From positions 3,784,288 through 3,848,287 of the forward strand of contig NC_015577.1 of assembly GCF_000214355.1 (NCBI RefSeq): 64,000 nucleotides of DNA, in the 5' to 3' direction. Under the pieces are notes generated by a model. It saw only the letters and a list, made by a program, of their open reading frames with translations, was not told where the DNA came from and made no database searches. Positions within the stretch are counted from its first letter, which is position 1. Every line of letters starts with the position of its first letter. A program made the position numbers and the translations under genes. Below, piece by piece: positions 43,408 through 60,611 of this stretch. This stretch comes from Leadbettera azotonutricia ZAS-9 (GTDB taxonomy: Bacteria; Spirochaetota; Spirochaetia; Treponematales; Breznakiellaceae).

Positions 43408-43442
43408 CCCTTAACCATACTGCAAATCCTGTTAAAATGTAA

Positions 43443-43457
43443 GGTGCCAGGTGCCCC
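43443..43457. repeat. GTGCCAGG-type palindromic repeat, variant
   Basis: GGTGCCAGGTGCCCC resembles the perfect copies of GTGCCTGGCAC at 53674 and 54632 and the variant at 48427. It stands between two accessory genes. Confidence 0.45.
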
Positions 43458-43461
43458 TGCG

Positions 43462-43803
43462 TTACTCCACCAAATGCCTGGCGATTACCCTTTGCACTGC
43501 TTCTTTGATAGCTCTATCGACCTCTTCTTCAATTTCTGCCAGAACCACATTTTGGAAGCTCTTTAGGTCTCTCGTCGGGGAAGATGTCAAGAATAATTCA
43601 TTGGCGTTGATTTCAAGGGCTGCGGCAATTCTTTCCAGCATTTCAGGGGTGGGAAATTTCCTGGTTAACTCGATCATGGCTATGTAGTGGGTTGAGGCGT
43701 TAGCCTTTTCTGCCAGTTTTGCCTGGGACAAACCAAGAATTCCCCTGTTCTTTTTAATATTTAGCGCCAAAAGCTTCCTTAAGCTAGCAATCTGATTGCC
43801 CAT
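43462..43803 (-). CDS. XRE-family HTH regulator
   Basis: A 113-aa protein. Residues 9-70 form a Cro/CI-type helix-turn-helix (LGLSQAKLAEKANASTHYIAMIE, then FPTPEMLERIAAALEINANELF). A C-terminal helix (EIEEEVDRAIKEAVQRV) may dimerise. Two AAGGCAAT repeats flank its promoter, and the -10 box stops six bases before the ATG, so the message is probably leaderless and self-repressed. Confidence 0.85.
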   Translation of the reverse strand: MGNQIASLRKLLALNIKKNRGILGLSQAKLAEKANASTHYIAMIELTRKFPTPEMLERIAAALEINANELFLTSSPTRDLKSFQNVVLAEIEEEVDRAIKEAVQRVIARHLVE

Positions 43804-43845
43804 AAGGCAATTATAGTAGTATATTGTGATTATCCAAAAGGCAAT
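43804..43845 (-). promoter_or_regulatory. XRE promoter with two AAGGCAAT sites
   Basis: On the minus strand TTGGAT and TATAAT (43815-43810) are 16 bp apart. AAGGCAAT occurs at 43804-43811 and 43838-43845, 34 bp apart (about three helical turns), one over the -10/start and one over the -35 side. They are likely operator sites of the XRE protein. Confidence 0.5.
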
Positions 43846-44466
43846 CTTTGCAATGGCGGTGATTACCTAAAAAATCCTCGTATGAGGTTTTTATATTATC
43901 AGGAGGTGACTCATGAAAAAAAGTTACAAAAGGGTTTTTGCAGCAATGACGGCTCTCGCGCTGGTATTCGGATTGGCATTGATGGGCTGCAGCAGTGACG
44001 GCGGTGGCGGCGGCTTGGACTTGCCGCCTATTGACGAGCAGACCCGCGGTGTTGCAACGATTACGGTAACAAATGCTCCGCTTACAATATCAGTGAACGG
44101 AGGTGAAAGCACCAGTCCGGCCACAAGTGTAAATGGCTATGTATTTGCAGATGGATTTAGCGGAAACGTCGGTACCATTACCAACGGAAAATTGACCCTA
44201 ACGCTGCCGGCGCCTGGCGCCAATACATTACAGGCAAGTTCAAATCTTAGCTATTACTTTGGAGGAGAGGAAGAACATCCAGCGACTGTTACGCCAAGTA
44301 ATGTAAAATTCCTGTATGTAAGTGGTTTTTCTGTTTGTAAGGACAATACCGACACTTCTGAATATATTTACTGGCTCAATAGAGATGCAACAATAACCAA
44401 TCTAGCTACCTTGATAGAAGGGGCCTCTATTGGGTATATATATTTGAGCAATGATGCAACCCGTAA

Positions 44467-45865
44467 TGCCTCAAAATAAAATCTAACCGAAAAGAACGGC
44501 TGCCTCACAATAAAAATCTAACCGTAGCTAAATATCTTCAAGAGCCGAAGCAGCAAGGGACTTCTGGCTCTGAAGCTCGAAGAGAGCCATCAGTGCATGG
44601 TTGACCAGGCGTTTCTGCTTGACCGGATTGAGACGGGCAGCCCTGCGTCGAAGCTCGTTCTTAAAAATATCAGGAAGGTCAGGGGATTCCAAGAGGCGCC
44701 TGTAGGGCGACTTGGGTTTGTCGTACACCTTCTTGACCCTGGCCCCTATCCGCTCCTTGGCGATTATTTTTTCTGAAGGGTAAAAATAGTTGAGCAGGGG
44801 ACAGAGATGGCGGTAGACCTCGGCCAGGGCGTCTCTGGCCTGGAGGGTGTCATAGCGATAGTACCCCACGGTCCTGCGGACGGTCATGTCGTTTTTCTGC
44901 TCCACGAAGCAGTTGTCGTTCTTGTGGTAGGAACGGCTGCGGGTGAACTGGACGCGGTGTTCGTCACACCATGCCTTGAGCTGGTAATTAATGAACTCCC
45001 CGCCGTTATCGCTGTCGATGCCCAAAAGGGGGAAGGGAAACTGGGAGGGGAAGAGAGACACCTCCTCTTTAACCCAGCGATGGGCCTTGTTGAGGAGGGC
45101 GCGGAGCTCCACCCAGCCTGAATAGACATCGGTGGCATTGAGGGTACAGCAGAACTCGCCTGAGGCGTTTCCGCCGTCATGAACCACCGTATCCAGCTCA
45201 AAAAAGCCCGGTTTCCTCTCATCCCAGGCATAAAAGACACGGATGGGGATCTGGTGCTTGAGGAGGCCGCCGGGCCGTGTGGCGCTCCGTCCTTTTAATT
45301 CCAGCTTCTTCCGTTCAGGCTTGAGCTTCCGGTCGATGGTGGCGGGGCTTATGGCAAGCAGCTGCGCCTTTACCTCCTTGGTGATGCCAAACTCCTTGCA
45401 GGGATTGAGGAAAGGCATCTGTTCCCGGAGGAAGGGGGAAAGCCTTTTCCCGCACATGTAATCAAAGAACTCCCAAATCAGTTTGAGGGCTTTTATCGTT
45501 GCCGCCTGGTAGACCGGCTTCCGCCCTCCCCCTGCTTTTCGTTTTTTAAACGCATCGGCCTTGAGCTTAACAACCCTTCCGGCCAGTCTGACCAGTTCCG
45601 TTCTCCCCCAATTCGCCAAAAGGTGCAGGGCGTATTTCCGGTTGTACCCTGTGTTCTGGACAAACTCGTCCAGGATAGCGGTCTTGCCCTTTTTCCCGGC
45701 TTTGCGATACCGCTTGCTGATTTCTCTGGCAAGCGCCTGTTTCTCTTTCATCGTTAACCCCATTGAGCCCTCCGGTACCCTTGTTACCGGATATAGGCTA
45801 CATAATTTGGGTTAGAATTTTATTATGAGGCATTCCCTGTTTTGGGTTAGATTATTTATGAGGCA
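44467..45865 (-). mobile_element. insertion sequence with rve-type transposase and doubled ends
   Basis: The outer ends are TGCCTC-type inverted repeats (TGCCTCAAAATAAAATCTAA at 44467; its counterpart ends at 45865). A second pair lies 33-34 bp inside each end (44501 and 45832). No clear target duplication is seen at the outer limits. Either each end has two transposase-binding sites or one copy landed in another. Confidence 0.75.
44528..45763 (-). CDS. DDE transposase with integrase (rve) core
   Basis: A 411-aa protein. The N-terminal 130 residues form a helix-turn-helix region (ILDEFVQNTGYNRKYALHLL). The catalytic core has Asp in PGFFELDTVVHDGG near residue 196, Asp in GIDSDNGGEFINY near 249, and Glu in NCFVEQKNDMTVRR near 285, the D-D-35-E retroviral-integrase pattern. 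It resembles IS481-like and unclassified (ISNCY) elements; the exact family I cannot fix. It is complete and probably active. Confidence 0.85.
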   Translation of the reverse strand: MGLTMKEKQALAREISKRYRKAGKKGKTAILDEFVQNTGYNRKYALHLLANWGRTELVRLAGRVVKLKADAFKKRKAGGGRKPVYQAATIKALKLIWEFFDYMCGKRLSPFLREQMPFLNPCKEFGITKEVKAQLLAISPATIDRKLKPERKKLELKGRSATRPGGLLKHQIPIRVFYAWDERKPGFFELDTVVHDGGNASGEFCCTLNATDVYSGWVELRALLNKAHRWVKEEVSLFPSQFPFPLLGIDSDNGGEFINYQLKAWCDEHRVQFTRSRSYHKNDNCFVEQKNDMTVRRTVGYYRYDTLQARDALAEVYRHLCPLLNYFYPSEKIIAKERIGARVKKVYDKPKSPYRRLLESPDLPDIFKNELRRRAARLNPVKQKRLVNHALMALFELQSQKSLAASALEDI

Positions 45866-46119
45866 ACGCGCAACCTTGACAAGGCCTGCCTTTACGGAAG
45901 AATATACACAGGATAATGGAGATACCGGAACAGAAACATGTCCAGCCGTCAATATCTCATTATTAGCCGGATGGAATTTAGTACAGCGAGATGAAATAAT
46001 AAGGGTAAGTGGGAATAATGTCGTGGGTACCTTCTCATATAAAGTCGCCACCGAAAATGTACCCTGGACACTGTGGTTGCCTGAATAAACAAGTATCCTC
46101 AGGCTAATCCGTCCATACC

Positions 46120-46158
46120 CCCTGCCAAGCAAATAAATTGCGCGGCAGGGTTTTTTTT
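46120..46158 (+). terminator. Rho-independent terminator of the split lipoprotein gene
   Basis: CCCTGCC (46120-46126) and GGCAGGG (46144-46150) form a 7-bp stem followed by eight T residues (46151-46158). Confidence 0.85.
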
Positions 46159-46232
46159 ACTCTGGATTATTTATTGCATATTCCAGGGGGAATATGTCCG
46201 GCGGGAAGGCCGAAAGGAAAAGTTATCATGGA

Positions 46233-46254
46233 TATTAACCCCCTCGCCACGAAT
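46233..46254. repeat. copy of the CCCCCTCGCCACGAAT intergenic repeat
   Basis: The core CCCCCTCGCCACGAAT preceded by TATTAA is found here, at 53573-53594, and inverted near 56666. This short copy lacks the hairpins seen at 53461. Confidence 0.6.
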
Positions 46255-46293
46255 CAAATTTTGAAATTGCAAGGACCGCTGTGGCATTATCCG

Positions 46294-46503
46294 TCAAGGG
46301 TTGGCCAGCCATTCAAGCACGTTAATATGCCGGATTCCGGCAAAATTGTTGCTGTCATAATCGCGGCTTAAGATAAATTTTGGGTAATTGTCTTTTATCT
46401 CTTGCAATGGCTCTAATTCCCTTTCAAAAACTTTCTTGTCCAGTAAAGTTTGTATTACCTGATAATATTCTACTTTCCCGCCGGGGCGGTTCCGGGTGTG
46501 GTG
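46294..46503 (-). pseudogene. C-terminal remnant of a DUF4143 AAA-family ATPase
   Basis: The minus strand reads GGKVEYYQVIQTLLDKKVFE then LEPLQEIKDNYPKFILSRD and ends GIRHINVLEWLANP. The KIxDNYPK(F/Y)(I/V)LS and G(I/V)xHxN pattern is the typical end of the DUF4143 domain. The ATPase and most of DUF4143 are gone. The whole stretch 46159-46794 holds only this, the short repeat at 46233 and the next promoter; between 46504 and 46746 I see nothing. Confidence 0.65.
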
Positions 46504-46746
46504 ACTCCCAGGGCTTTACTGAAGAATTGCTGAACAAAAACCAAGTATGTTTCCCTCTTTTATTGTTTTTTATGCACTTCCTGATAATTAGTCCCACAAT
46601 AGCCTAAACGTTGAGGAGCTTGAAAACAGTCTTACTTCTAAAATAGGATGTTAGATGCCATTAAAACCAAGAATTTAATAAGAGGCAGAGCCGCATCCAT
46701 GCGGCCCTCAAAAAACAATAATATCAAAGAATATGCAAAAAAACAC

Positions 46747-46776
46747 TTGACAGTACATACTATTTTAAGATATTAT
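46747..46776 (+). promoter_or_regulatory. promoter of the vapBC operon
   Basis: TTGACA (46747-46752) and TATTAT (46771-46776) are 18 bp apart, and GGAGG (46783-46787) lies 7 bases before the antitoxin ATG at 46795. Confidence 0.6.
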
Positions 46777-46794
46777 ATGTACCGGAGGCTATTT

Positions 46795-46986
46795 ATGAGA
46801 ACTACATTGGAATTACCTGATATATTGGTCGCAGAAGCCATGGAAATAACCAATATCTCCACTAAAACAGAAGTTATTAAAACAGCTCTGGAAAATTTAA
46901 TCCAACGAGAAAAAGTCAAAGAATTAGCAGACTATTTTGGAAAAATCGACCTGGGAATTAATATTGAGGAAATGAGAAAACGATGA
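46795..46986 (+). CDS. vapB: VapB-type antitoxin (ribbon-helix-helix)
   Basis: A 63-aa protein. The first strand and helix RTTLELPDILVAEAMEITN then STKTEVIKTALENLIQRE are the DNA-binding ribbon-helix-helix of the DUF2191 VapB group. The rest (YFGKIDLGINIEEMRKR) is the toxin-binding tail. A good GGAGG fixes the start. It binds the operon promoter and neutralises VapC. Confidence 0.82.
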   Translation: MRTTLELPDILVAEAMEITNISTKTEVIKTALENLIQREKVKELADYFGKIDLGINIEEMRKR

Positions 46987-47050
46987 CGCCTCACCGCTGG
47001 ATAGCGGTGCATAAATTAATTTCCTAACGGAAAGCGGAACGGAGTGACGC

Positions 47051-47446
47051 ATGAAAAACATATTAATAGATTCCTCGGCTTGGATAGAATATTTCAGAGG
47101 GAATGAAAAATATAGGTACATTAAAAACTTAATATACAGTAATATAACCTGTACCAATGATCTGATATTAACAGAATTATTGCCCTCAATAATTCATAGA
47201 AATGAAAAACATCTGGAAGAATTATTGAATAGTTTAACAAAATACGAAATGAAAATAAATTGGAACGAATTACAAAAAATTCAAGTAATGAATTACAAAC
47301 ATGGATACAATAACATAGGCATTACAGATTTAATAATAGCACAAAACTGTTTACAAAATAATCTGAAACTTATTGCACAAGATAAACATTTTACTGAAAT
47401 GGCAGAATATATACCAATAAGAATATATGAACAGGACAAAGTATAG
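47051..47446 (+). CDS. vapC: VapC-type PIN-domain ribonuclease toxin
   Basis: A 131-aa toxin with the PIN acidic residues: Asp in ILIDSSAWIEYFRG near residue 6, Glu in ILTELLPS near 42, Asp in NIGITDLIIAQNC near 95, and LIAQDKHFTEMAE near 115. It cuts RNA when free of VapB. The 64-base gap to vapB contains a GC-rich inverted repeat (CACCGCTGGATAGCGGTG), unusual for an operon whose genes normally touch. Confidence 0.85.
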   Translation: MKNILIDSSAWIEYFRGNEKYRYIKNLIYSNITCTNDLILTELLPSIIHRNEKHLEELLNSLTKYEMKINWNELQKIQVMNYKHGYNNIGITDLIIAQNCLQNNLKLIAQDKHFTEMAEYIPIRIYEQDKV

Positions 47447-47544
47447 AATAAATTGACTAAAGTGAAAATACGCCAGGAACCCGCTGCGCGGGGGAGGTCC
47501 ATGGCGGGCTATTCGACGCGGGTTTTAACAGCATCTAACACACG

Positions 47545-48270
47545 CTATGCGCCAGTAATCTGTTCAGGCGTAAGCCCAGTGTATTTGATTATAAGATCCA
47601 TGGACGTTTTATCAGCTTCCCTTTCAGTTCCCCCTCCTGTCGCGCACAGTTAACACCACTGGTCCAGTCGGACAGCGCCATTTCCCGCATCTGATAGACC
47701 CGGAGGGCTTCCTTGTCGTTGCTTACAAAAGTCATCTTTTTCTCGGCCTGCCGTATTGCCGTATCTATTTTAACTACCTCCTCCACTATCTCAGGTGAAC
47801 TTCCCTGATCTAGCCATGTCATCCACCGCTGCAGGGGGTCATTCTTGATATCCCTGTCCCGGAGCTTTTTGAATTTCACCATGTCGATAAAGTGAATTTC
47901 CAGCGCTTCTGTCAAAATATAATCCCTCTCCGCGTCCTCCCGCAAGTGGAAGGAAGCATGGAAGTTTTTGGTTGCCAGATACTCGAAATTGACAACGTTT
48001 ATGGCTATGACATTGGGCAACACCTTGTAATCGTCCCCGGCTTCAATGCTCCGGGTATAGTCCTGGCTCCAATAAAAAAGGCTCCGCTTGTCCCTGTTTC
48101 CTAAATTCTTAAGCTGGACTTATATCTTCACCTTCGTTCCATCATCGGTCTTTGCCCGGACATCGAGAATACTGGCCTTGTCCTCAATTATATCCGCAGT
48201 AATGGTCCTGTTCTCAAGGATTTCCACTGAAACAAGTTGATTCTTCCGTGTCCGCTTCAAAACGGCATTA
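47545..48270 (-). pseudogene. Rpn-family nuclease pseudogene
   Basis: The minus strand reads KASILDVRAKTDDGTKVKI, a stop (TAA at 48122-48120), then VQLKNLGNRDKRSLFYWSQD and LPNVIAINVVNFEYL, the heart of the Rpn/PDDEXK_2 domain. The catalytic xQV segment is hit by the stop. A second lesion, a frameshift near 47625, precedes the tail YTGLTPEQITGA. The N-terminus is absent. It once encoded a transposase-like endonuclease. Confidence 0.8.
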
Positions 48271-48423
48271 TGTGTGTTGAATTACGTTGCAGATAACCCG
48301 GAAATTCTTTCGAAGGTTCATTAATCGCGCTCGACCTAGGACTTCCCCCCGGGCCATTCCCTTTCAGATCCTTGCAGGGGGAATTTCCATTACCGGGACT
48401 AAAGTTTCCGCTTCCTGTGGAAA

Positions 48424-48441
48424 GAGTGCCAGGCGCCTGAG
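48424..48441. repeat. GTGCCAGGCGC repeat, variant
   Basis: GAGTGCCAGGCGCCTGAGCG is a diverged copy of the GTGCCTGGCAC palindrome found at 53674 and 54632. It lies at the edge of the FIST operon, with nothing else recognisable between 48271 and 48456. Confidence 0.45.
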
Positions 48442-48456
48442 CGTTCCTACCTACCC

Positions 48457-48484
48457 TTGAATCTTTTAAATTTTATAGTAGAAT
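48457..48484 (+). promoter_or_regulatory. promoter of the FIST/hybrid kinase operon
   Basis: TTGAAT (48457-48462) and TAGAAT (48479-48484) are 16 bp apart. GAGGA at 48504-48508 is the ribosome-binding site for the GTG at 48514. Confidence 0.5.
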
Positions 48485-48513
48485 ATACATCAGATTGTAA
48501 AAAGAGGAAATTT

Positions 48514-49719
48514 GTGTTAAAGATATATACTGCGTACACCACAGAGCTGGATGATGTTGATGGCGCCCTTGCTGAAATTATTGCCCGGATCGATCTAAAT
48601 GGGCTGGCAAAAAATTCCGTGGGGCTTATAAGCTGCTATTCCGAATTTATTGACACCGGAATCATCGCCGCCTTGAGTGAAAAACTGCCCTTCGATATAA
48701 TCGGCGCAACCACCATGGCCAGTTCTTCCGGAAGGGGACCTCATCCGTTGGGTTCGGTGGAAGCTCCCGATTCCGCCGGGAATTACGGCATGTACAGCCT
48801 TGGCCTTACTGTTTTAACCAGCGACGATACCTGTTTTCAAACAGCTATTTCAGCGCCCCTAACCCCGGGCGGTTACGAGGAGAGCCTTTCCACTGCGTAT
48901 CATGACGCCCTTGGCAAACTGCCCGGCGATCCGTCCCTGATTTTCGCATTTCTGCCCCTGGTGTCCGATTTTAGCACTTCCGGGGTTGTGGAAAGCCTGA
49001 ATGTCCTTTGTAAAGGTGTACCCATTTTCGGCACCGTTTCCGGGGATGTAACTTTGACACAGGAAAACTGCTATACCCTTCGTAATGGGCAGGGTGAAAA
49101 ACGTGCCGCCGCCCTTCTTCTGATCCACGGTGCGGTGAATCCCCGGTTTATCGTATCCTCACTTCCCGACAAAAACATAGGCCGCCAAAAAGCCGTGGTT
49201 ACCGAATCCGAAGGATGCCTGGTCAAAAAGGTAAACGGTGTAACCTTGCTGGAATATTTGAAGGACATGGGTATTGTCCCCCGAATCAGTAGCGGTATCG
49301 GTACGGTAAAAGAACCCTTCATGGTGGACTACGGCAATGGTTCCAAGCGGGTCGCCCTGCGGGCACACAATATTTTGGAGAATGGGGATGCCCTGTTCAG
49401 CGGCCCAATGCCCCAGGGCGTTACCTTTTCCATCGGCCAGGTAGACAGGGATGGTATAATCGGGACTGCCCAGGAGGCTTTGCACAAGATTCTCGAAGAT
49501 GGTGATGCCCAGGGAGCCGTTATCTTTACCTGCATGAGCCGCTACATAATGCTGACTCCGAATAAGGATGATGAAATGAAAACTATTCAGGAATATCTTG
49601 GCGGAAAAATTCCCTACGCCCATAGTTATTCCGGCGGGGAAATCTGCCCTGTGTACGGGGAAGACGGAAAAACCTACAACCATTTACACGGGTATTCCTT
49701 TGTTGCCTGTGTTTTTTAA
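48514..49719 (+). CDS. FIST-domain sensor protein
   Basis: A 401-aa soluble protein starting with GTG (48514), placed by GAGGA. Residues about 20-215 are FIST_N (SVGLISCYSEFIDTGIIAAL, FDIIGATTMASSSG), and about 225-390 FIST_C (RFIVSSLPDKNIG, VFTCMSRYIMLTPN, ISYAHSYSGGEICP-like end). FIST domains are thought to bind small ligands such as amino acids and to feed signal transduction. The hybrid kinase gene starts 3 bases after its stop, so the pair should work as an input module and a kinase. Confidence 0.9.
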   Translation: MLKIYTAYTTELDDVDGALAEIIARIDLNGLAKNSVGLISCYSEFIDTGIIAALSEKLPFDIIGATTMASSSGRGPHPLGSVEAPDSAGNYGMYSLGLTVLTSDDTCFQTAISAPLTPGGYEESLSTAYHDALGKLPGDPSLIFAFLPLVSDFSTSGVVESLNVLCKGVPIFGTVSGDVTLTQENCYTLRNGQGEKRAAALLLIHGAVNPRFIVSSLPDKNIGRQKAVVTESEGCLVKKVNGVTLLEYLKDMGIVPRISSGIGTVKEPFMVDYGNGSKRVALRAHNILENGDALFSGPMPQGVTFSIGQVDRDGIIGTAQEALHKILEDGDAQGAVIFTCMSRYIMLTPNKDDEMKTIQEYLGGKIPYAHSYSGGEICPVYGEDGKTYNHLHGYSFVACVF

Positions 49720-49722
49720 CCT

Positions 49723-51873
49723 ATGACAGGCGTAGACGTGGATTTCCTGGTAGAACAACTGCGTCAGCGGGTGGCGGAACTGGAAAGCAGTGAAGCGGAA
49801 CTAAAAAAGCAGGTACGGAAAAGCGCCAGGGAAAACAAACAGCTGCAGGATGCCATTGCGTACAATGAATACAGCACCTTGGTAAAGGAAAACCAGCTTT
49901 CCCTGCGTACCCAGGAGCAGGAGCGGCTGGAAAAATACATGAACCTGCTTTTGGGGAACAGCCCAAATAGCATTCTTCTTATTGATAAGGACGGGCAGGT
50001 TGCTTATTGTACCGATACTTTTTTGAAAATCAATCATATTACGGACAATAATCTGGTTATCGGAAAAACCATGCAGGATGTTTTCAGCGGCTACGCTTCC
50101 CCGGAACGAATTACCGGGCTTCTTAAAGCCCTGGAAGATGCCATAGCATCCAAAACAACCTTGATAGTGGATAGAGCAGGAATGTTCGGCATCGCCGACG
50201 AAACGCGCAATTATATGGTGTACTTTACCCCCATGCAGAACAAGGAGGGAGAACACGAAGGCGTGATGATACTTTTCCACGATATTACCGATATCGAGCG
50301 GGCCCGGGAGGAGGCGGAACGGGCCAATCTGGCAAAGAGTACCTTCCTGGCCACTATGAGCCATGAAATGCGTACTCCCATGAACGCCATCATCGGGATG
50401 ACCTCTATCGGCAAAGCAGCCCCCGGTCTGGAAAGGAAGGATTACTGTTTCAAAAAAATAGAAGAAGCCTCTACCCATCTTTTGGGGGTTATTAATGATG
50501 TTCTTGATATGTCAAAAATTGAGGCGAATAAACTGGAGCTGTCCCCGGAGTCCTTTAATTTTGAGAAGATGCTCCAAAAAACAGTAAATGTCATTAATTT
50601 TCGCGTTTCTGAAAAACAGCAGGATTTTACGGTGTATATCGACGCGAAGATCCCCAGCATTATAATCGGCGATGACCAGCGGCTGGCCCAGGTGATTACA
50701 AACCTGCTTTCCAACGCCGTTAAGTTTACACCGGAAAAGGGCAGAATACACCTGGATTCCCGTCTGCTGAAGGAAGAAAAGGGTATCTATACTATTCAAA
50801 TCTCGATAAGCGATACAGGAATTGGGCTTAGCGAAGAACAAAAAGGGCGGCTTTTTTCTTCTTTCCAGCAGGCGGAAAACAGCACCTCCCGGAAATACGG
50901 GGGCACCGGCCTTGGGCTTGCCATCTCAAAACGGATCGTAGAAATGATGGGCGGTTCGATCTGGATAGAGTCGGAACCCGGCAAAGGCTCCTCATTTATC
51001 TTTACTATGCAGGTCCCCAGGGGCAGCGAAGACCAGCAGGTTCCTGTTCCCGGAAGAAATTGGGACAATGTGAAAGTCCTGGCGGTGGACGATGATCCGG
51101 ATACTCTTGAGTATTTTATGCAAATCGCCGAACAGATAGGTTTTGCCTGTGATGCCGCCTCCGGTTCAGAAGACGCTCTCCGCCTGATTGCAGAAAAGGG
51201 CGCCTACGATATTTATTTTGTTGACTGGAAAATGCCCGGCATGAACGGCATTGAGCTGGCCCGGCAGATCAAGGGAAAGGAAGAACAAGCGGCAAAGTCG
51301 GTAATAATAATGATCTCCGCCACCGAATGGGATCTTATTCAGGGTGAAGCAAAAGCGGCGGGGGTGGATAAATTTTTATCCAAGCCTTTGTTCCCATCTC
51401 CCATTGTGGACAGCATCAACGAATGTCTGGGAACAGGCGCCATCCGGGAAATACAAACCGGAGAAACCGTTTCCTACAAGGGTCACTGCATTCTTCTGGT
51501 GGAAGATGTGGAAATAAATCAGGAAATTGTACTAACCCTCCTGGAGCCGACCTGTCTTACGATAGATTGCGCAGACAATGGCGCGAAGGCTTTAAGCATG
51601 TTCAGCGCTGCGCCTGAAAAGTACGATATGATTTTTATGGACGTGCAGATGCCGGAAATGGACGGGTATGAAGCGACCCGGCGGATACGGGCACTGGAGA
51701 ATGTTCCTCATGCCGCTTCTATCCCTATTGTAGCAATGACTGCAAATGTGTTTCGGGAAGATGTGGAAAGGTGCCTTGCCGCCGGTATGAACGATCATGT
51801 GGGAAAGCCCATCGATATGGATGAGATTTTTAAAAAGCTGCAGAAATATATTCCTCAGCTATTGAATGTTTAG
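49723..51873 (+). CDS. hybrid histidine kinase with PAS and two receiver domains
   Basis: A 716-aa protein without membrane helices. Order: coiled coil (about 1-68); PAS (about 75-190, [20 protein letters not shown]); HisKA with His214 in [13 protein letters not shown]; ATPase domain (about 320-440: [28 protein letters not shown]); receiver 1 (about 448-565) with Asp501 in FVDWKMPG; receiver 2 (about 585-705) with Asp640 in [11 protein letters not shown]. No output domain is present, so phosphate must pass to a separate Hpt or regulator not in this window. A cytosolic kinase beside a FIST protein suggests FIST delivers the stimulus. Confidence 0.93.
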
Positions 51874-51921
51874 GTAAATATTTCCCTTCATGGTTTACTA
51901 ATCCGGACGGGAGGATAATTT

Positions 51922-52056
51922 TTGCCGACAATTTTTGACAATATCCACAAGCCTGACCTGGCTTTTGCCTTAAACTCCACCCTTGGCGATGCAAAACGGG
52001 CTGATTTTTGTATCGGATACTTCAACCTCCGCAGTTGGAATCTCCTTCCGTGTTAA
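51922..52056 (+). pseudogene. N-terminal remnant of a PLD-like/helicase protein
   Basis: A TTG at 51922, after GGGAGG, opens 44 codons: PTIFDNIHKPDLAFALNSTL, then DAKRADFCIGYFNLRSWNLL, stop at 52056. RADFCIGYFNLRSW is the first strand of the phospholipase-D-like domain that starts many large helicase-related defence proteins. The rest is lost. The 414-base stretch 51874-52287 holds only this and the terminator at 52198. Confidence 0.5.
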
Positions 52057-52197
52057 CGTACTTGACATAAACCTGCGCAAAGGCAAGACTGGGTTATGAT
52101 TCAAGTTGGTTCTTTACCTATAGTGAATTACCCCCCCCATTTCCATCGGATTACTAGGATATAATGGTTCCCGCCATTTTAATTCCTCAAATCATGT

Positions 52198-52221
52198 CCG
52201 GGCAATTGCCGGGCTTTTTTT
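52198..52221 (+). terminator. hairpin with T-run
   Basis: CCGGGCAATTGCCGGG, around the palindrome GGCAATTGCC (52201-52210), is followed by seven T residues. It may end transcription of the lost gene upstream. Confidence 0.6.
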
Positions 52222-52287
52222 ACGGGAAACGGTGTTTCCCTTCCAATTAGCTTCGCCGCTCACGCGGCCCATAGCAAGGAGTAAGAA

Positions 52288-52893
52288 ATGATTAAATCAT
52301 TGGAATTGCAGAAAATGAATTCGCGCCGCGCAAAGGCAGTGGCCGCCGCCGGAATGATGGGATTTGCGACAATATTCGGTGCATGCAAACAGCCGACGGA
52401 TCAACAGCCGAAAGTATGCGAATGCCCAGATAAAGTCCATGGCGATGCGCCATGCGCATGCGGTGCCAGTTTATGCGATTGCAAACAGAAAAATTATACA
52501 CTTTACATAGGAACGAATCCAATAACTGTTGTTGATGAATCCGGCGGATTAGTCACACAAGATATGTTGTCATTTATGCAAGAAGAATTATATAGTGCGA
52601 ATGAAGATAATTGCATAAATAATTTAAGAACGCGCGATAATATGAAGATAATTGTAGAGGATGTTCCATTGTATTTTGACTTGGATGATACCATCGTGGT
52701 TAATAGCCGTGAAATAAGAATTCGTATTGAATTTTTATCAACCGGATATATTATAAATAGATATCGTTTTTTTGAGGCTATAAAGGATTTAAATGATAAT
52801 TATATTGCAGCATTGGGCAAACAGTTCAATAGTGCAAAGAATACCGTTCGGCTCATCTCCCAGGAGAGTGCTTGGCGCCCTTTTATGTTATAA
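52288..52893 (+). CDS. lipoprotein of unknown function
   Basis: A 201-aa protein with a twin-basic start (SRRAKAVAAAGMMGFATIFGAC), the lipobox Cys near residue 33, so probably a lipid-anchored envelope protein. Residues 33-70 hold seven further Cys or CDC/CEC pairs (VCECPDKV, APCACGASLCDCKQK), possibly a metal- or disulfide-rich module. The rest is mixed helix and strand without a family I know. AAGGAG precedes the ATG. The Cys cluster is the odd feature. Confidence 0.7.
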   Translation: MIKSLELQKMNSRRAKAVAAAGMMGFATIFGACKQPTDQQPKVCECPDKVHGDAPCACGASLCDCKQKNYTLYIGTNPITVVDESGGLVTQDMLSFMQEELYSANEDNCINNLRTRDNMKIIVEDVPLYFDLDDTIVVNSREIRIRIEFLSTGYIINRYRFFEAIKDLNDNYIAALGKQFNSAKNTVRLISQESAWRPFML

Positions 52894-53060
52894 GTTTCTG
52901 CCGGGTATAAAGATTATGGATAAATTATCGTAGCATGCAAGTTCTTTAATGTTTTCCTGAATAGGGTATGCACGGAAGCCTCTCCCATCCGCCTATGCAG
53001 GATGAGAGTTTCGCCTTCACCGGATTTTTGTCAATGCAATTCATGGCAAACAAAAATCCA

Positions 53061-53097
53061 TTGATAATGCATATCAAATGTGATATTGTATATGCAT
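53061..53097 (+). promoter_or_regulatory. vapB promoter with inverted-repeat operator
   Basis: TTGATA (53061-53066) and TATTGT (53084-53089) are 17 bp apart. The arms ATGCATAT (53067-53074) and ATATGCAT (53090-53097) straddle the -10 box, as expected for autoregulation by a VapB dimer pair. Nothing else is visible from 52894 to 53060. Confidence 0.6.
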
Positions 53098-53110
53098 AGG
53101 AATTGCTGAA

Positions 53111-53308
53111 ATGAGAACGACACTCGATCTAAATGAAGCTTTATTGAATGAAGCAATGAAATGGACAGGTCTATCAACTAAAACCAGTGTAATTAACGAG
53201 GCATTAAAAGAAGCCATACAATATAGGAAACGGATGAAACTTATTGAGATGGCCGGAACAATTAAATTGGATGTTGATCTCAATATTACGCGAAATAGAA
53301 TGGGATGA
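53111..53308 (+). CDS. VapB-type antitoxin, orphaned
   Basis: A 65-aa ribbon-helix-helix protein (RTTLDLNEALLNEAMKWTGL, then STKTSVINEALKEAIQ), 40-50% like the vapB at 46795. It ends in KLDVDLNITRNRMG. The promoter and operator are intact, so it can still be made, but its toxin is only a fragment. Confidence 0.78.
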   Translation: MRTTLDLNEALLNEAMKWTGLSTKTSVINEALKEAIQYRKRMKLIEMAGTIKLDVDLNITRNRMG

Positions 53309-53490
53309 AATAATAGAAATTCAGCATCAATGCATTAAATCCGGAATCAACAAATTAGGCCTACTGGATATTGCAATCGCCCAAAATGCAAAACAAAATG
53401 GCATAGGAATATTTTCGACGGACAGACATATGGCATTGTTAAATCAAAAAATAGGAATCAACAACCCCGCGGCAAGCCGCGAGGTATGTT
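53289..53490 (+). pseudogene. vapC fragment
   Basis: Reads EIEWDEIIEIQHQCIKSGIN, then KLGLLDIAIAQNAKQNGIGI and FSTDRHMALLNQKIG, the C-terminal half of a PIN toxin including the Asp of LLDIAIAQ. The N-terminal catalytic Asp is deleted, and the fragment begins inside the end of vapB, so a deletion fused the two genes. It runs into the repeat at 53461. Confidence 0.75.
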
Positions 53491-53640
53491 GTTCTCTTAA
53501 GGAATTGGACTCGGGGCTTAATACCTTTTTAACCGCCCCAAGGCTTCCACGCGTGAGCGTGTTCTTGGGTATTAACCCCCTCGCCACGAATAAATTGTAT
53601 CACGAAATAATCCGGCGCCTTTTATATTTGCCCCATAAAT
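53461..53640. repeat. GC-rich hairpin repeat ending in CCCCCTCGCCACGAAT
   Basis: It contains CCCCGCGGCAAGCCGCG and ACGCGTGAGCGT hairpins and the CCCCCTCGCCACGAAT core (53579-53594). In one frame it spells a spurious protein ending PRLPRVSVFLGINPLATNKL, a sequence I have seen as a false gene in unrelated genomes, so this is a widely spread non-coding repeat behind toxin genes. Confidence 0.65.
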
Positions 53641-53673
53641 GACCTGTTGCCAACGCAAAGAGGAACGGCAAGA

Positions 53674-53684
53674 GTGCCTGGCAC
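53674..53684. repeat. GTGCCTGGCAC palindrome, downstream of the Rpn gene
   Basis: A perfect copy of the 11-bp palindrome, preceded by CAACGCAAAG and followed by CCC. The same context lies on the other side of the Rpn gene at 54632. Confidence 0.6.
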
Positions 53685-53706
53685 CCCTATTAGGCTTTCA
53701 AGGCTT

Positions 53707-54561
53707 TTATTTTCCAGCTGTCTTGGTGGCTTTTGTTTGGGCTAATTTCTCTTCAATCTGCCCTGCTGTGTAGCCTTGCTTTACGAGTTCCAAAACTATG
53801 CTTTTGCCTTCTTCACGGCCTTCTTCACGACCCTCTTCGCGGCTGACTTCCATGGCTTCCTCTGTACTCCATTCGGTTAACAACATATTAAGCACCTCCG
53901 ATGCATTTTCTTCCAGGAATTGACGCAAGATATTGTGTTCTATGCAATAGTTGATTGCTTCCCTAAAAGCACGTTTGTTATCGGGAATGGTTTTGGTGTA
54001 TTCCCGGACTTTTTCAACAAAAGCGCTGTATCCATTGAGTTCTTCACTCCTTTCCAATATTGTCTCGTTGTGACCAGTATTGATATTATACACCCTGGCA
54101 ACAAGTTCCAGCCCCACCGGCATTTCGGTTTTGTCCGTCAAATCCCCCAGCTTCTTGAAAGCATTGGACAATTTTAAAGTAGCTTGATCCGGGTATGGAT
54201 CAGTGCCGTTGTATAGCACTATGAACTCGGGCCAGGGGATGGAAACCAGATCTTTGGCGTATATCTTTTTCCTGTCTATTATTTTTTCGTATACCCTGGC
54301 AATGTACAAAAGCAATCTGAGGGGCATATTCTCATTTATCGTGCTTTGGTGCTCTATAAGGACAACCAGCCTGTTATCCACAGTGAATGAAAGGTCATTG
54401 ATTTGATCCTTAAAAATCACGTCGCTTAAGGTATTGATGTCGATGGACACATTAGGGGGCAGCGTAACCCCTTCCAGTGCACTGTATAGACTCCGCAAAA
54501 CATCAGAGTCATTAAAGAGCAGCGAAAATACGCTATTTTTATACTCCCGATTCGCACCCAT
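53707..54561 (-). CDS. Rpn-family recombination-promoting nuclease (PD-(D/E)XK)
   Basis: A 284-aa nuclease. The core shows Asp in INDLSFTVDNRLVVLIEHQS (near residue 65) with Glu in LIEHQS, the family form of the PD-(D/E)XK site. The next block is MPLRLLLYIARVYEK, then IPWPEFIVLYNG. The C-terminal tail has REEGREEGREEG and a short helix (VKQGYTAGQIEEKL) typical of Rpn proteins. The start at 54561 (MGANREYKN) is chosen as the family begins just before YKNSVFSLLF; 12 more codons upstream are open. It cleaves DNA and promotes recA-independent recombination in relatives. Flanked by GTGCCTGGCAC repeats. Confidence 0.87.
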   Translation of the reverse strand: MGANREYKNSVFSLLFNDSDVLRSLYSALEGVTLPPNVSIDINTLSDVIFKDQINDLSFTVDNRLVVLIEHQSTINENMPLRLLLYIARVYEKIIDRKKIYAKDLVSIPWPEFIVLYNGTDPYPDQATLKLSNAFKKLGDLTDKTEMPVGLELVARVYNINTGHNETILERSEELNGYSAFVEKVREYTKTIPDNKRAFREAINYCIEHNILRQFLEENASEVLNMLLTEWSTEEAMEVSREEGREEGREEGKSIVLELVKQGYTAGQIEEKLAQTKATKTAGK

Positions 54562-54631
54562 AGAAACCCCTGACATTAATAATACCAAATTTTTCATGGA
54601 TTTTCAATGCTTTTTTACCGGCAACGCAAAA

Positions 54632-54642
54632 GTGCCTGGCAC
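54632..54642. repeat. GTGCCTGGCAC palindrome, upstream of the Rpn gene
   Basis: A perfect copy preceded by GGCAACGCAAAA. With the copy at 53674 it brackets the Rpn gene in the same orientation. Confidence 0.6.
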
Positions 54643-54731
54643 CGATTGGGATTAAGGGTGCGAGAACTTGTTTTTTTATCAATTTTGATATAGAGTTAGT
54701 ACATATTGAAAACCGCTTTCAGGAGGTAACC

Positions 54732-54959
54732 ATGTTGCTAACAATTCAAGGTTTTTTTGTAGAGGGCAAATTCATCTCCAATGAAGCAGTAAAAATCCCC
54801 GACCATAAAAAAGCCATAGTAACTATACTCGAAGAAGATACTGCTAAAACTAACAAAATGGCTGAATGGAAGGAATGCCTACGTCTCCTTGACGAAAGCA
54901 TGGACGAAGAAGTACCCGACTTCCCACGGGCAAATTTGCACCGCGAATTTGCACTATGA
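54732..54959 (+). CDS. antitoxin of a VapBC-type module
   Basis: A 75-aa protein with a strong AGGAGG. The first 35 residues form a small beta domain (IQGFFVEGKFISNEAVKIPD then KAIVTILEE) as in AbrB/DUF-type antitoxins, followed by a charged helix and DFPRANLHREFAL. Its stop overlaps the next ATG. Its toxin is broken. Confidence 0.7.
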   Translation: MLLTIQGFFVEGKFISNEAVKIPDHKKAIVTILEEDTAKTNKMAEWKECLRLLDESMDEEVPDFPRANLHREFAL

Positions 54960-55229
54960 TCGTCTATTACGAAGTCCGAAGGGGCTTATTATCCACAAAC
55001 GCTCCCATTAAAACCGCCACATTTAACCAGTTTTGCAAAATCCACGAAGTAGGAAACCTCCTAGATAGCCGCCAAAATATACACCAGCCTGTCAAAGCAA
55101 GGCAAGATTGTAGAAGATGCCGACATATTGATCGCTGCCTATTGCCTACAGCATGATTTTACCCTCGTTACAAACAATATACAGCATTTTGAAAACATAG
55201 ATACCCTAAAATACGAAGACTGGGCATAA
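54956..55229 (+). pseudogene. vapC pseudogene, truncated and frameshifted
   Basis: The first frame reads IVYYEVRRGLLSTNAPIKTA then FNQFCKIHEV, the middle of a PIN toxin. After about 55065 the match moves to another frame: IYTSLSKQGKIVEDADILIA, LQHDFTLVTNNIQHFENID, ending at 55229. The N-terminal Asp strand is missing and there is at least one indel. Confidence 0.8.
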
Positions 55230-55281: not shown

Positions 55282-55297
55282 TGTTTCACGTGAAACA
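55282..55297. promoter_or_regulatory. parS site 1 (ParB-binding centromere)
   Basis: TGTTTCACGTGAAACA, a perfect 16-bp palindrome equal to the bacterial parS consensus. Its GTG (55290) is the apparent start codon of the lipase gene. Confidence 0.85.
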
Positions 55298-56090
55298 TAT
55301 TGAGCTGAAATACCCCCTCCTGCTGATTCACGGGGCGGGGTTCAGGGACAAGACCATGGGCATCAATTACTGGGGCAGGATACCCCGGTATCTGGCCGAA
55401 CAGGGGGTTGCCGTCCATTACGGCGGCACAGACGCCTGGGGAACCCTGGAAAGCAACGGGGAAATGGTTAAGCGGGCGATCCTGGAGACCCTGGACAAGA
55501 CCGGGGCGGAAAAGGTCAATATCATTGCCCATTCCAAAGGCGGCCTGGAGGCGCGGTATGCCATAAGCTGCCTGGGGATGGATTCCAGGGTTGCCTCCCT
55601 GACCACCATGTCCACGCCCCACAGGGGGGTTAAGGCCATGAACACAGCCCTGCAGCTTCCCCTCTGGCTCTACCGCCCTGCTTCTGTCCTTGCGAACCTC
55701 TGGAGCAGGATATTGGGGGATGGGGGGCCTGATTTTTTCCGGGGCAGCCGGCAGCTGGCCGAATATTTTTGCACCGAATTCAACCGGAAATATCCCGATA
55801 AGCCGGGGATTCTCTACCAAAGCTATGCCTCTAAGCTGAAATACTTTTTCGGCGACCCTGCCTATCTGCTTACCTGGATTCTAGTAAAGATCTTTGACGG
55901 CGACAACGACGGCCTGTGCCCGGTAGAGTCCGCCAAATGGGGGGAATTCCGGGGGATCATAACCACCCAGGGATACTTCGGGGTCTCCCATGCGGGCATT
56001 CTGGACTTGTACAGGGTACCGTATAAAGGAGTCCGCATCCCGGAACTATATGTTGCCATTGCAAAGGAACTGGCCGGAAAGGGGCTATGA
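55290..56090 (+). CDS. alpha/beta-hydrolase, lipase/esterase
   Basis: A 266-aa protein. The oxyanion strand KYPLLLIHGAGFRD is at residues 7-20, the nucleophile elbow is AHSKGG (Ser near residue 89), and the C-terminal His may be in GVSHAGILD near 235, with the Asp in FDGDNDGLCP near 210. No signal peptide, so cytosolic. It resembles the triacylglycerol lipases of Pseudomonas/Bacillus type. The GTG start lies inside a parS site and has no ribosome-binding site; a Met at codon 23 (55356) is a fallback. Confidence 0.82.
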   Translation: MKHIELKYPLLLIHGAGFRDKTMGINYWGRIPRYLAEQGVAVHYGGTDAWGTLESNGEMVKRAILETLDKTGAEKVNIIAHSKGGLEARYAISCLGMDSRVASLTTMSTPHRGVKAMNTALQLPLWLYRPASVLANLWSRILGDGGPDFFRGSRQLAEYFCTEFNRKYPDKPGILYQSYASKLKYFFGDPAYLLTWILVKIFDGDNDGLCPVESAKWGEFRGIITTQGYFGVSHAGILDLYRVPYKGVRIPELYVAIAKELAGKGL

Positions 56091-56091
56091 A

Positions 56092-56107
56092 TGTTTCACG
56101 TGAAACA
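56092..56107. promoter_or_regulatory. parS site 2 (ParB-binding centromere)
   Basis: A second exact TGTTTCACGTGAAACA, 810 bp from the first, starting two bases after the lipase stop codon. It lies between convergent genes. Confidence 0.85.
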
Positions 56108-56111
56108 TTGC

Positions 56112-56597
56112 TCAGGCGCCTATGGGGGCGCACACATCAACCCAATCCAGGCTGGCGGAATATTCCTTAAGCTCGTCCATGGTCAGCTCTATGGCCGAAT
56201 TGCCGCTGCCGCAGGCAGGGTAGACGGTTTGGAAGCGTTGGAGGGAAACGTCGAGGTACACTTCTACACCCGGCGGAAGGGCAAAGGGGCAGACACCGCC
56301 TACTGCATGGCCGGTGTATTCCAGGGCTTCGCCGGGGCTGAGCATTTTCGCCTTAAGGTCGAAACGGTCTTTGTACTTCCGGTTGTCCAGCTTCACATCC
56401 CCGGCGGTGACTACTACCATGGCAGCGGGGACGCCGTCCTTTTCTACCCTGAGGGAGATGCTTTTGGCTATGCGGGCGGGGATTACGCCCAGGGCTGCGG
56501 CGGCAAGCGCCACTGTGGCGGTGGATTCTTCCATCACGATAATATCCTTGTCCCTGCCCCACCTGGCAAGGTATTGGCACACCGATTCAATAGACAT
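56112..56597 (-). CDS. YbaK/prolyl-tRNA-editing-family deacylase
   Basis: A 161-aa single-domain protein. The conserved block GHAVGGVCPFALPPGVEVYLD near residue 98 and VKLDNRKYKDRF near 68 place it in the YbaK/ProX group, which removes wrongly attached amino acids (Cys or Ala) from tRNA-Pro. It is cytosolic. Its end lies five bases from parS site 2. Confidence 0.9.
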   Translation of the reverse strand: MSIESVCQYLARWGRDKDIIVMEESTATVALAAAALGVIPARIAKSISLRVEKDGVPAAMVVVTAGDVKLDNRKYKDRFDLKAKMLSPGEALEYTGHAVGGVCPFALPPGVEVYLDVSLQRFQTVYPACGSGNSAIELTMDELKEYSASLDWVDVCAPIGA

Positions 56598-56838: not shown

Positions 56839-57342
56839 TTACTGGGCGGTAAAGACCAGAACCCGCTCTGCCCCTGTGTTGTCAGAGCTGTAGAGTTCCA
56901 GGCGGCCTTCGCGGATATCCCAGCGGGCAGCCCGATTCAGGTAAGAGAAGTAGTCGTGCTCCGGGAGATCCTGGGGCTCGCTGATCCCCATCATCAGGGT
57001 GGCGGCGATATTGCCGACAACAAGCGACCGGCCTTCGCCGGGGGTGTACGGACCGAAGTAGCGGTTGGGCGCGCCCATGCCGCTGAGGCGGCCTTCCTCA
57101 AAAGTGAGGGTGTAAGTCCCCTTGAAGCCGGAGGCTTCGAGCTGCTGCCTGTCCAGGCGGATAGTGGCGGAAGGGCCTTTCACTTCCGCCAGTGTCCACT
57201 CCCTGCCCTGGACATCGCTGAAAACCGCGCCGCTGTCTTTGGCTTTTGCCCCGCCGGCGCATGAAGCTGCCAGCATTGCTGCGGCAAGGAGGGCAAGCAA
57301 CCCTGCCATCCTGATGCCTGTTTCTTTAATCCTGCTTTGCAT
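56839..57342 (-). CDS. META-domain lipoprotein (HslJ-like)
   Basis: A 167-aa protein with signal peptide and lipobox (AGLLALLAAAMLAASC, Cys near residue 28). The META domain follows: GREWTLAEVKG, TFEEGRLSGMGAPNRYFGPY, LMMGISEP, YLNRAARWDI, LVFTAQ. It is a lipid-anchored envelope protein; relatives have roles in stress or antibiotic tolerance, none proven here. Confidence 0.85.
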   Translation of the reverse strand: MQSRIKETGIRMAGLLALLAAAMLAASCAGGAKAKDSGAVFSDVQGREWTLAEVKGPSATIRLDRQQLEASGFKGTYTLTFEEGRLSGMGAPNRYFGPYTPGEGRSLVVGNIAATLMMGISEPQDLPEHDYFSYLNRAARWDIREGRLELYSSDNTGAERVLVFTAQ

Positions 57343-57421
57343 TTTTTGCTCCTATGATTATAGTATACATATTAATAAGGCTTTCACCAAATTTGCAGAA
57401 AAATAAAGCAGGGGGTTCGTG

Positions 57422-58105
57422 ATGTATTTTGATTACTATTATGTGGTTCTGGTAGTCCCTACCATTATCCTGTCCCTGATTGCCCAGATCCTGGTGAAGT
57501 CCACCTTTTCAAAATATTCGAAGATCAGGTGCTCCAGGGGCATCACGGGCAAGGATGCTGCCAGCCTGCTGATGCGGGCGAACAATATCAGGGACGTAAG
57601 CATTCAGCAGGTGCGGGGCAATCTGACGGATCATTACGATCCGGGCGCCAAGGTGCTGCGCCTTTCGGATCCTGTCTTCGGCAATCCCTCCATTGCCGCC
57701 GTGGGGGTGGCGGCCCACGAGACCGGCCACGCCATCCAGCATGCCACGTCCTATGGCCCTCTGGCGCTGCGGAGCTCCCTGGTGCCCATAGCGAACATAG
57801 GCTCAACCATCGGGCCCTGGATCGCCATCGCGGGGATTTTCCTGTCGTTCCCTGTTTTGATCAACATCGGGATTGTTCTTTTTGGCGGGGCCGTGGTTTT
57901 CTATTTGATAACCCTGCCCGTGGAATTCAACGCTTCCGCACGGGCCTTGTCGATTCTAAAAAGCAACAATGTACTCAGCGCCGATGAACTTCGGGGAGTG
58001 CGAAAAGTGCTGACCGCCGCAGCCTTGACCTATGTGGCTTCTGCCCTGACAGCCCTGATGAGCTTCGTCAGGCTTATTCTTCTGGCTCAGAGGAGACGGC
58101 GCTAG
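57422..58105 (+). CDS. YugP-type membrane zinc metallopeptidase
   Basis: A 227-aa integral membrane protein with the HETGH zinc site ([14 protein letters not shown]) near residue 97 between a first helix (residues about 5-27) and two later ones (about 125-170). [16 protein letters not shown] near 178 is a family block with the third ligand. The ATG at 57422 follows GGGGG; the GTG just before it is possible. Its last 32 bases overlap the end of gyrA on the other strand. Confidence 0.87.
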
Positions 58106-60611
58106 AGTCATTTTCTTCCAGCGGGAATTCCAGCTGCCCTTCGTCCTGTGCATGGGGGGCTTCTTCCTCCTGGACTATGCGGTCAAGGCCGCTCACGAAG
58201 TCGGGCTTGTCTATGCTGAGGATCTTTACGCCCTGGGCCGAGCGGCCCATCACCCGGATCGAGGCGACTTTGAGCTTGATGGACTTGCCCTGGCTGGTGA
58301 TGCACATGATTTCTTCTTTGTCACGCACGCCTACGCAGCCTACGATTTCCCCGGTCTTTTCGCCCACAGTGTAGATCTTCTGGCCCCCGGTGCCTCGGCC
58401 GTGGGAGGAGAACTCGCTGAAATCCACGCGCTTGCCAAAGCCGTATTCGGAGAGGATGAGCATCTTCTCGTCTTCCGACACCTTGAGGAGGCCGGTGAGC
58501 TCGTCGCCCGAGGCGAGCTTCATGCCGGTGACACCATGGCCCGCGCGGCCCATGGGCCTTACGGCGTCCTCGTGGGTGCGCAGGGCCTGTCCCCGCCTGG
58601 AGATGAGCACCACTTCGTCCTTGCCGCCGGTGAGAAGGGCGCTGACGAGTTCGTCTCCTTCGTCAAGCTTGATGGCGATAATGCCCCGTGTCTTGGCATT
58701 GGAGAATTCGGATGTCTTGACTTTCTTGACCACACCACGGGCGGTACCCATGAGGATGTATTGATCGTCCGAGAAGTCCTTGAAAGACACGATGGCGGTG
58801 ATGTCTTCGTTGGGCGAGACCGTGAGGAGGCTCTTGATGTGGGCGCCCTTGCTGGTGCGGGTTCCCTCGGGAAGCTCGTGAACCTTCATCCAGTAGGCCT
58901 TGCCCTCATTCGTGATGAACATGATGTATTCATGGGTAGAGGCCACAAAGATCTGCTCCACAAAATCGTCTTCCGTAAGCTTGGCGGCTTGCATTCCTTT
59001 GCCGCCCCTGCCCTGGTTCTTATATGCAGAAACAGGCACACGCTTCACATAGCCCAGGTTGGAGATGGTGATCATCATCTCTTCTTTCTTTATGAGGTCT
59101 TCAATGTTGATGTTTTCAACTTCGCCGTTAACAATCTCGGTGCGGCGCTTGTCGCCGTAGCGGCTGGAAATGCTTTTGGTTTCATCTTTGATGACATTGC
59201 GGAGCTTAACGGGATCCGCAAGGAGGTCTTTATAATAGGCGATCTGAATCTGGAGTTCCGCCAATTCAGCCTGGAGCTTCTCGACTTCCAGGGAGGTGAG
59301 GCGGCCCAGCTGCATTTCAACTATGGCCTTGGTCTGGGGTTCCGAAAGGAGGAAGCGTTCCTGCAGTTTTGCCTTGGCTGCGGCGACATCGCGGCTTGCC
59401 TTGATAATGGCCACCACTTCGTCGATGTTCGCCAGGGCGATAACGAGGCCCTCCAATATGTGGGCCCGCTCCTCGGCTTTGCGGAGATCGTACTGGGTAC
59501 GGCGGGTAACGACCTCTACCCGGTGATCCACAAAGTAGCTGACAAGCTCCTTGAGGTTGAGGGTCCGGGGCCTGCCGTTGACCAGGGCGAGATTGATGAT
59601 GCCGAAAGTGGCCTGAAGCTGGGTATTGGCGAAAAGCCGGTTCAATACCACCTTGATAATGGCGCCTTTCTTAAGCTCTATGACTACCCGGATGCCCTCG
59701 CGGTCGGAGGATTCGTCATTGACGTAGGAAACGCCGTCAATCTCTTTATCCCTCACCATGACGCCTATGCGCTCAATGAGGAGCTTCTTGTTCACCCCGT
59801 AGGGTATCTCGTTAAAGACGATTTGCTCTTTGCCCGACTTGGTGGTCTCGATGATAAAGCGGCCCCGGACAAGGATCTTGCCCCTGCCTGTCTTGTAGGC
59901 TTCCCTGATGCCCCTGCGGCCAAAGATGATGCCCCCTGTGGGGAAGTCCGGGCCGTCAATGAACTTCATGAGATCTTCGATGGTAACATCGGGGTTGTCG
60001 ATAAAGGCGCAGACTGCCTCGCAGACTTCCACGAGGTTATGGGGGGCCATATTGGTAGCCATGCCGACGGCGATGCCGCTTGAGCCGTTTATGAGGAGAT
60101 TGGGAACAGCCGCAGGAAGCACCGTAGGTTCAAGCTCTTCTTCTGAAAAATTGGGGGTAAAGTCCACGGTCTCCTTGTTGAGATCCTGGAGCATTTCGTC
60201 GCCGATTTTGGAGAGCTTCGCCTCGGTATAACGCATGGCCGCGGGAGGATCGTCGTCCAATGACCCAAAATTGCCCTGCCCTTGTACCAGAGGGTAGCGG
60301 AGGGAAAAATCCTGGGCCATGCGCACCAGGGCATCGTAGAGGGAAAGATCTCCATGGGGATGGTACTTGCCCATGGTATCGCCGACGATGCGGGCGCACT
60401 TTTTGGTGGTGGCATTGGGGTGGAGGCCCAGCTCGCCCATGGAGAAGAGGAGCCGCCTGTGCACAGGCTTAAGCCCGTCCCTCACGTCCGGGAGCGCCCG
60501 GGAAACAATGACGGACATTGCGTAATTGAGGTAGTCGGTTTTTACTTCGTCTTCTATCGCAACGGGAATAATTTTCCCGGTTGGCACGGGTATATCGGAG
60601 GTTTCAGCCAT
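58074..60611 (-). CDS. gyrA: DNA gyrase subunit A
   Basis: An 845-aa protein. The breakage-reunion domain starts with [21 protein letters not shown] (residues 33-53); the active Tyr is Tyr128 in [10 protein letters not shown]. The C-terminal beta-pinwheel (about 520-810) has the GyrA box QGRGGKG near 555, which separates gyrase from topoisomerase IV. With GyrB it adds negative supercoils. In the quinolone-binding helix [13 protein letters not shown] the residue equal to E. coli Ser83 is Leu89. The acidic tail ([14 protein letters not shown]) is normal. Confidence 0.96.

Follow-up and report, generated by a model that had tools for sequence, protein, structure and literature searches.

A predicted parS centromere beside gyrA in Leadbettera azotonutricia ZAS-9 and its variation among related spirochetes

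The DNA analyzed here (the window) is a 64-kb stretch of the Leadbettera azotonutricia ZAS-9 chromosome, comprising bases 3,784,288-3,848,287 of the complete 3,855,671-bp contig. It contains two perfect copies of the palindrome TGTTTCACGTGAAACA, spaced 810 bp apart, at 55282-55297 (site 1, distal to gyrA) and 56092-56107 (site 2, proximal to gyrA), exactly where the initial annotation had reported two 16-bp parS sites. The gene bracketed by the sites has its apparent start, a GTG codon at 55290, within site 1; it lies on the plus strand (55290-56090) and encodes a 266-amino-acid alpha/beta hydrolase of lipase/esterase-like type (Abhydrolase_1, 4e-8; DUF676; Palm_thioest). Site 2 is part of the 18-bp palindrome ATGTTTCACGTGAAACAT and lies inside the 21-bp gap between the stop of the hydrolase gene (56090) and that of a convergent ybaK-like gene (56112), which encodes an aminoacyl-tRNA editing domain on the minus strand (56112-56597; tRNA_edit, 3e-22). 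Toward gyrA follow a META-domain lipoprotein gene (56839-57342, minus strand), a conserved neighbor between ybaK and gyrA; a neutral zinc metallopeptidase gene (57419-58105, plus strand; Zn_peptidase_2), a local insertion between META and gyrA; and gyrA itself (58074-60611, minus strand), the conserved origin-proximal neighbor of the parS pair, whose start lies 4.5 kb from site 2, as had been noted. On the side distal to gyrA, the region 42850-55200 shows patchy G+C and many mobile or toxin-antitoxin-like ORFs, including PIN-like ORFs and an Rpn/YhgA-like putative transposase, which replace the arfB-metK side of relatives; beside the parS sites of this genome, where the putative-transposase and small unassigned ORFs stand, arfB and metK were not detected.

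A scan of the window with up to three mismatches found no further copy of TGTTTCACGTGAAACA, and in the complete chromosome the same two copies were the sole matches with up to two mismatches, the sites thus being confined to one place in the genome; the reversed control pattern gave one match at this threshold. Based on nucleotide composition, 0.00084 perfect matches are expected per genome, and approximately one match genome-wide with up to two mismatches. Given two sites, a second site within 826 bp of the first has a probability of 4e-4, and a location of both within 16.4 kb of dnaA one of 7e-5. The initial annotation had held that a pair within 826 bp was not due to chance and that the window contained no other copy, and both statements stand.

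The contig is circular, with dnaA at C1:301-1716 followed by dnaN and recF, and, counted across the junction, 15.6-16.4 kb separate dnaA from the genome's only two sites. In the intervening stretch, gyrA is followed by approximately 9 kb of further genes, some of them for ABC transporters, and by gyrB. DnaA boxes, one perfect (C1:247) and several with one mismatch, are present in the gap between gyrB and dnaA and in the region of the dnaA start. GC skew is weak and noisy, being positive at 0-0.2 Mb and negative at 3.2-3.7 Mb in the samples taken; its cumulative curve has local minima near 3,822 and 3,852 kb, and near the contig junction its values pass from negative to positive. The weak skew agrees with an origin at dnaA and is insufficient as proof alone. 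The proposal that this end of the window is probably origin-proximal is borne out by the distance to dnaA, the DnaA-box-like sequences, and a skew change at the junction rather than far from the sites. The reasoning from Treponema pallidum on which it drew also holds, as a genome of this type, 1.14 Mb in size, carries a single parS (one mismatch) that follows gyrA after 86 bp and is 6.9 kb away from dnaA, where the contig begins.

The same chromosome carries an overlapping parA-parB operon at approximately 775.5-777.1 kb (L003), so that about 776 kb separate it from the dnaA end, and about 790 kb from parS when counted through dnaA; no parS was found beside it in the genome-wide scan with up to two mismatches. 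ParB comprises the CTP-binding N domain, the HTH, and the C-terminal dimer domain (ParB_N, HTH_ParB, and ParB_C in Pfam) and contains an N-terminal LGRGL as well as GERR and ENVQR motifs; solved ParB/Spo0J structures can be aligned to it. Its residues corresponding to Caulobacter R173 and G201 are arginine and glycine, whereas the aligned Noc chain has glutamine and arginine; the former pair is parS-specific and invariant in ParB, and the latter is found in Noc (PMC7383237). Position 184, which is permissive and variable among ParBs (PMC7383237), is occupied by lysine. The best NCBIfam match is the Noc model, but it remains below the cut-off (235 of 315 bits), and together with the arginine-glycine pair this places the protein outside the Noc/NBS systems, with their glutamine and arginine positions and Noc-type site. 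The search for parB suggested at the outset thus yielded a gene in an operon with parA and with parS-type specificity residues. Proximity of parAB to parS or oriC is a common accompaniment in many bacteria and no defining requirement, and parB is also unlinked from parS in single-contig relatives (approximately 87 kb in G028, 766 kb in G033, 269 kb in G040, 282 kb in G045, and roughly 300 kb in G037). An SMC gene is located at 820.5-823.3 kb. The genome also encodes a second ParB_N-domain protein (G000:C1:1363606-1363884; L004, 1414-2070) without an HTH_ParB match, which adjoins a gene resembling that of a penicillin-binding protein; most relatives likewise encode short ParB_N proteins of this kind.

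With up to one mismatch, parS was matched in 45 of 59 relatives and the control pattern in one only, and relatives with at least two sites on one contig have them clustered within approximately 2.7 kb. A sample of 93 genomes of the order, in which fragmented assemblies blur the per-genome counts, contained 9, 18, 32, 11, 16, and 7 genomes with zero, one, two, three, four, and more than four sites, respectively (up to one mismatch). Two is the commonest number (32/93) in a range of 0-8, and three or more are found in 34 of the 93 genomes; these counts rule out universal pairs, just as spacings from 46 bp to approximately 2.7 kb rule out a constant distance. For the nine genomes without a site, either the system varies or the assemblies miss parS. 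The usual place of the cluster is just 3' of gyrA, in the gene order dnaA/gyrB/gyrA, and in most relatives examined, from several families, the 16-mer adjoins gyrA, usually as a pair or cluster, while controls almost never match. The position beside gyrA and/or ybaK is kept in most relatives, the genus of G037 and G040 being the exception. In the family of L. azotonutricia, the backbone reads gyrA-META-ybaK-parS-(gene)-parS-arfB-like-metK, of which the genomes keep different parts; in related genera, the proximal parS is anchored in synteny to the 3' end of the ybaK-like gene, which is 0-45 bp away in many of them. In outgroup families, the sites are mostly 46-200 bp apart, with no gene inside.

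Several departures from this arrangement were observed. In one genus (g38; G037 [L065, G037:C1:2496700-2516600], G040 [L066], G150, G188, G192, and G313), gyrA and the parS pair are approximately 45-590 kb apart, and the pair lies 277 kb from dnaA in G037 and 338 kb in G040; GC skew in G037 goes from negative to positive values at about 2.54-2.56 Mb, a point to which parS (2.506 Mb) is nearer than dnaA. A Brachyspira-like genus (g100; G111, G119, G128, G132, G140, G148, G152, G160, and others) has two paired parS variants that are asymmetric, TGTTTCACATGAAACA and TGTTTCATGTGAAACA, 100-860 bp apart and usually mirrored; in G175 both have the same orientation. Several parS sites double as apparent gene starts, and an A preceding the site gives ATGTTTCACGTGAAACA, from which ORFs beginning with MFHVKH start (L056, L065, L066, and L162). 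In G347 (L161, G347:C195, positions 537-552), a one-mismatch parS forms an in-frame insertion within ybaK itself, where it encodes EVSRET, the rest of the YbaK protein being conserved; centromere sites can thus arise within genes.

The interval between the sites differs in content among members of the family, in which a single gene often sits tightly between them and its identity depends on the lineage. This gene encodes a 59%-identical hydrolase in G021, an HpcH/HpaI aldolase in G206 (4,059,867 bp), a 23S-rRNA intervening-sequence protein (23S-IVP) in G024, an NlpC/P60 protein in G028, and a small secreted protein in G002, G005, G012, G019, and G349 (no Pfam match for the copies in G012 and G019), whereas G386 and G352 have several ORFs there. 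The hydrolase gene points toward ybaK and gyrA in L. azotonutricia (G000) and away from them in G021, and in each of the two genomes a parS copy contains its start codon. The difference may reflect an inversion whose endpoints lie at parS or very close to it, but this is suggestive only, because viable breakpoints must fall between genes anyway. The secreted-protein gene of G347 was dropped as a second such inversion: the proximal parS lies inside ybaK there, so the interval differs from the slot of other genomes. A scan of the genome collection found six closer relatives of the hydrolase in spirochete-labeled assemblies, three of them near gyrA (L123, L124, and L126). Only the L126 gene is bracketed by two parS sites; for that of L123, the nearest perfect copy noted is 2.8 kb away, and a relic with two mismatches lies approximately 100 bp upstream. 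The simplest history is that the ancestral sites formed a tight pair, separated later by gains of single genes. Because the occupants differ by lineage and the hydrolase is inverted between two genera, the gene between the sites is best read as a variable passenger and not as part of a conserved functional unit. A conserved parS-gene-parS unit is ruled out by occupants that differ or are absent.

We hold with high confidence that the palindrome pair represents the chromosomal parS centromere, derived from an ancestral cluster on the gyrA side, and that the enclosed gene is a later passenger. We conclude that the two sites probably constitute the complete parS centromere of the chromosome, to which ParB is predicted to bind. 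Counted against this reading were the unlinked parAB and parS, the 9 of 93 relatives without a site, the weak GC skew, and the Noc model as the best NCBIfam match of ParB. By homology to characterized ParABS systems (PMC7333895), from which ParB binding, spreading, segregation, and SMC loading would follow, ParB produced from the operon approximately 776 kb away would bind each parS as a dimer, close into a CTP clamp, and slide outwards. With two loading sites only 810 bp apart, a single partition complex would assemble on the gyrA side of the origin region. ParA would then move the duplicated complexes apart, and SMC would probably be loaded there by ParB. The pair would have been inherited from a tight cluster directly downstream of gyrA, and the gene gained later between the sites would take no part in partition.

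Superimposed on the centromere role, the pair might form an exchangeable slot for a single-gene cassette, swapped and occasionally inverted by recombination between the palindromes, an addition that we regard as improbable. Unrelated single genes fit tightly between the sites in different genera, and the hydrolase gene has opposite orientations with respect to ybaK and gyrA in G000 and G021, its start codon falling within parS each time. However, palindromes of 16-18 bp are short substrates for homologous recombination, no recombinase tied to the parS sites was found, and survivorship explains the tight fit, since viable insertions and inversions must land in intergenic gaps. Moreover, some intervals contain several ORFs (G386 and G352) or none, one parS has moved into the ybaK coding sequence (G347), and the L123 and L124 hydrolase genes lie near gyrA without a perfect bracketing pair. 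In its form for the L. azotonutricia family, with parS sites as stable slot boundaries kept by selection and ParB-mediated or replication-associated recombination swapping or inverting the gene, the proposal is likewise doubtful; if true, the centromere would double as a local hot spot of gene turnover. Still less probable, indeed very unlikely, is that the palindromes are operators or Noc-type sites of a local regulator that control the hydrolase gene rather than partition. Site 1 does overlap the apparent start codon of this gene, site 2 abuts its stop, and a second ParB_N-domain protein is encoded at 1.36 Mb; but that protein is without an HTH_ParB match, the palindromes exactly match the parS consensus and not the Noc site, and the sites of relatives flank unrelated genes or none yet remain beside gyrA/ybaK. 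The residues of ParB, of parS type, together with the site sequence exclude a Noc-type site, and control of the hydrolase gene is unlikely to be the main role of the palindromes because this gene is replaced in relatives. A chance occurrence or dispersed repeat, favored by nothing beyond the short length of the motif, has practically no probability and is ruled out by the 0.0008 perfect matches expected, the genome scan, a location conserved across families, and nearly absent control matches.

The centromere reading, preferred here, would fix both the centromere and the origin end of this chromosome from sequence. As far as checked, the predicted parS centromere is new for the present genome, its biology is of the expected kind, and it would be an ordinary bacterial centromere. 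Across the spirochete order, a parS cluster, most often of exactly two sites, is kept beside gyrA, while the distance between the sites and the genes found there change freely. What makes the number of parS sites vary, although one often suffices, is a standing question (PMC7333895), for which this clade, whose genomes have from 0 to 8 sites at a single conserved location, offers a natural data set. The clade-wide cluster at gyrA and the turnover of the inter-parS gene are the parts worth following.

The arrangement resembles the chromosomal ParABS systems of Bacillus, Caulobacter, and Pseudomonas (PMC7333895) in its 16-bp palindrome, origin-proximal position, ParA-ParB operon, and SMC; it differs from them in having only two sites, 810 bp apart by gyrA, and in the location of parAB approximately 776 kb away. 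Elsewhere, the number of sites ranges from 1 (Xanthomonas) to 20-23 (Streptomyces and Listeria) (PMC7333895). Bdellovibrio bacteriovorus, from an unrelated phylum, likewise has two identical parS sites near oriC, which are near-consensus there (PMC10547168). The literature search on spirochete parS found only work on Borrelia. The Borrelia burgdorferi chromosome also has an origin-proximal parS, which is bound by ParB and recruits SMC (PMC9712426); in contrast to the parAB operon and the remote parS described here, its parS lies beside parB, parA and parB are divergent, and ParZ is present. Furthermore, Borrelia ParB is without the LG(R/K)GL ParA-stimulating motif, whereas the ParB described here has LGRGL. 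Noc and its binding sites represent a paralogous protein family with a related palindrome (PMC7383237), from which the present system is distinguished by arginine and glycine at both specificity positions of ParB and by a site that is parS.
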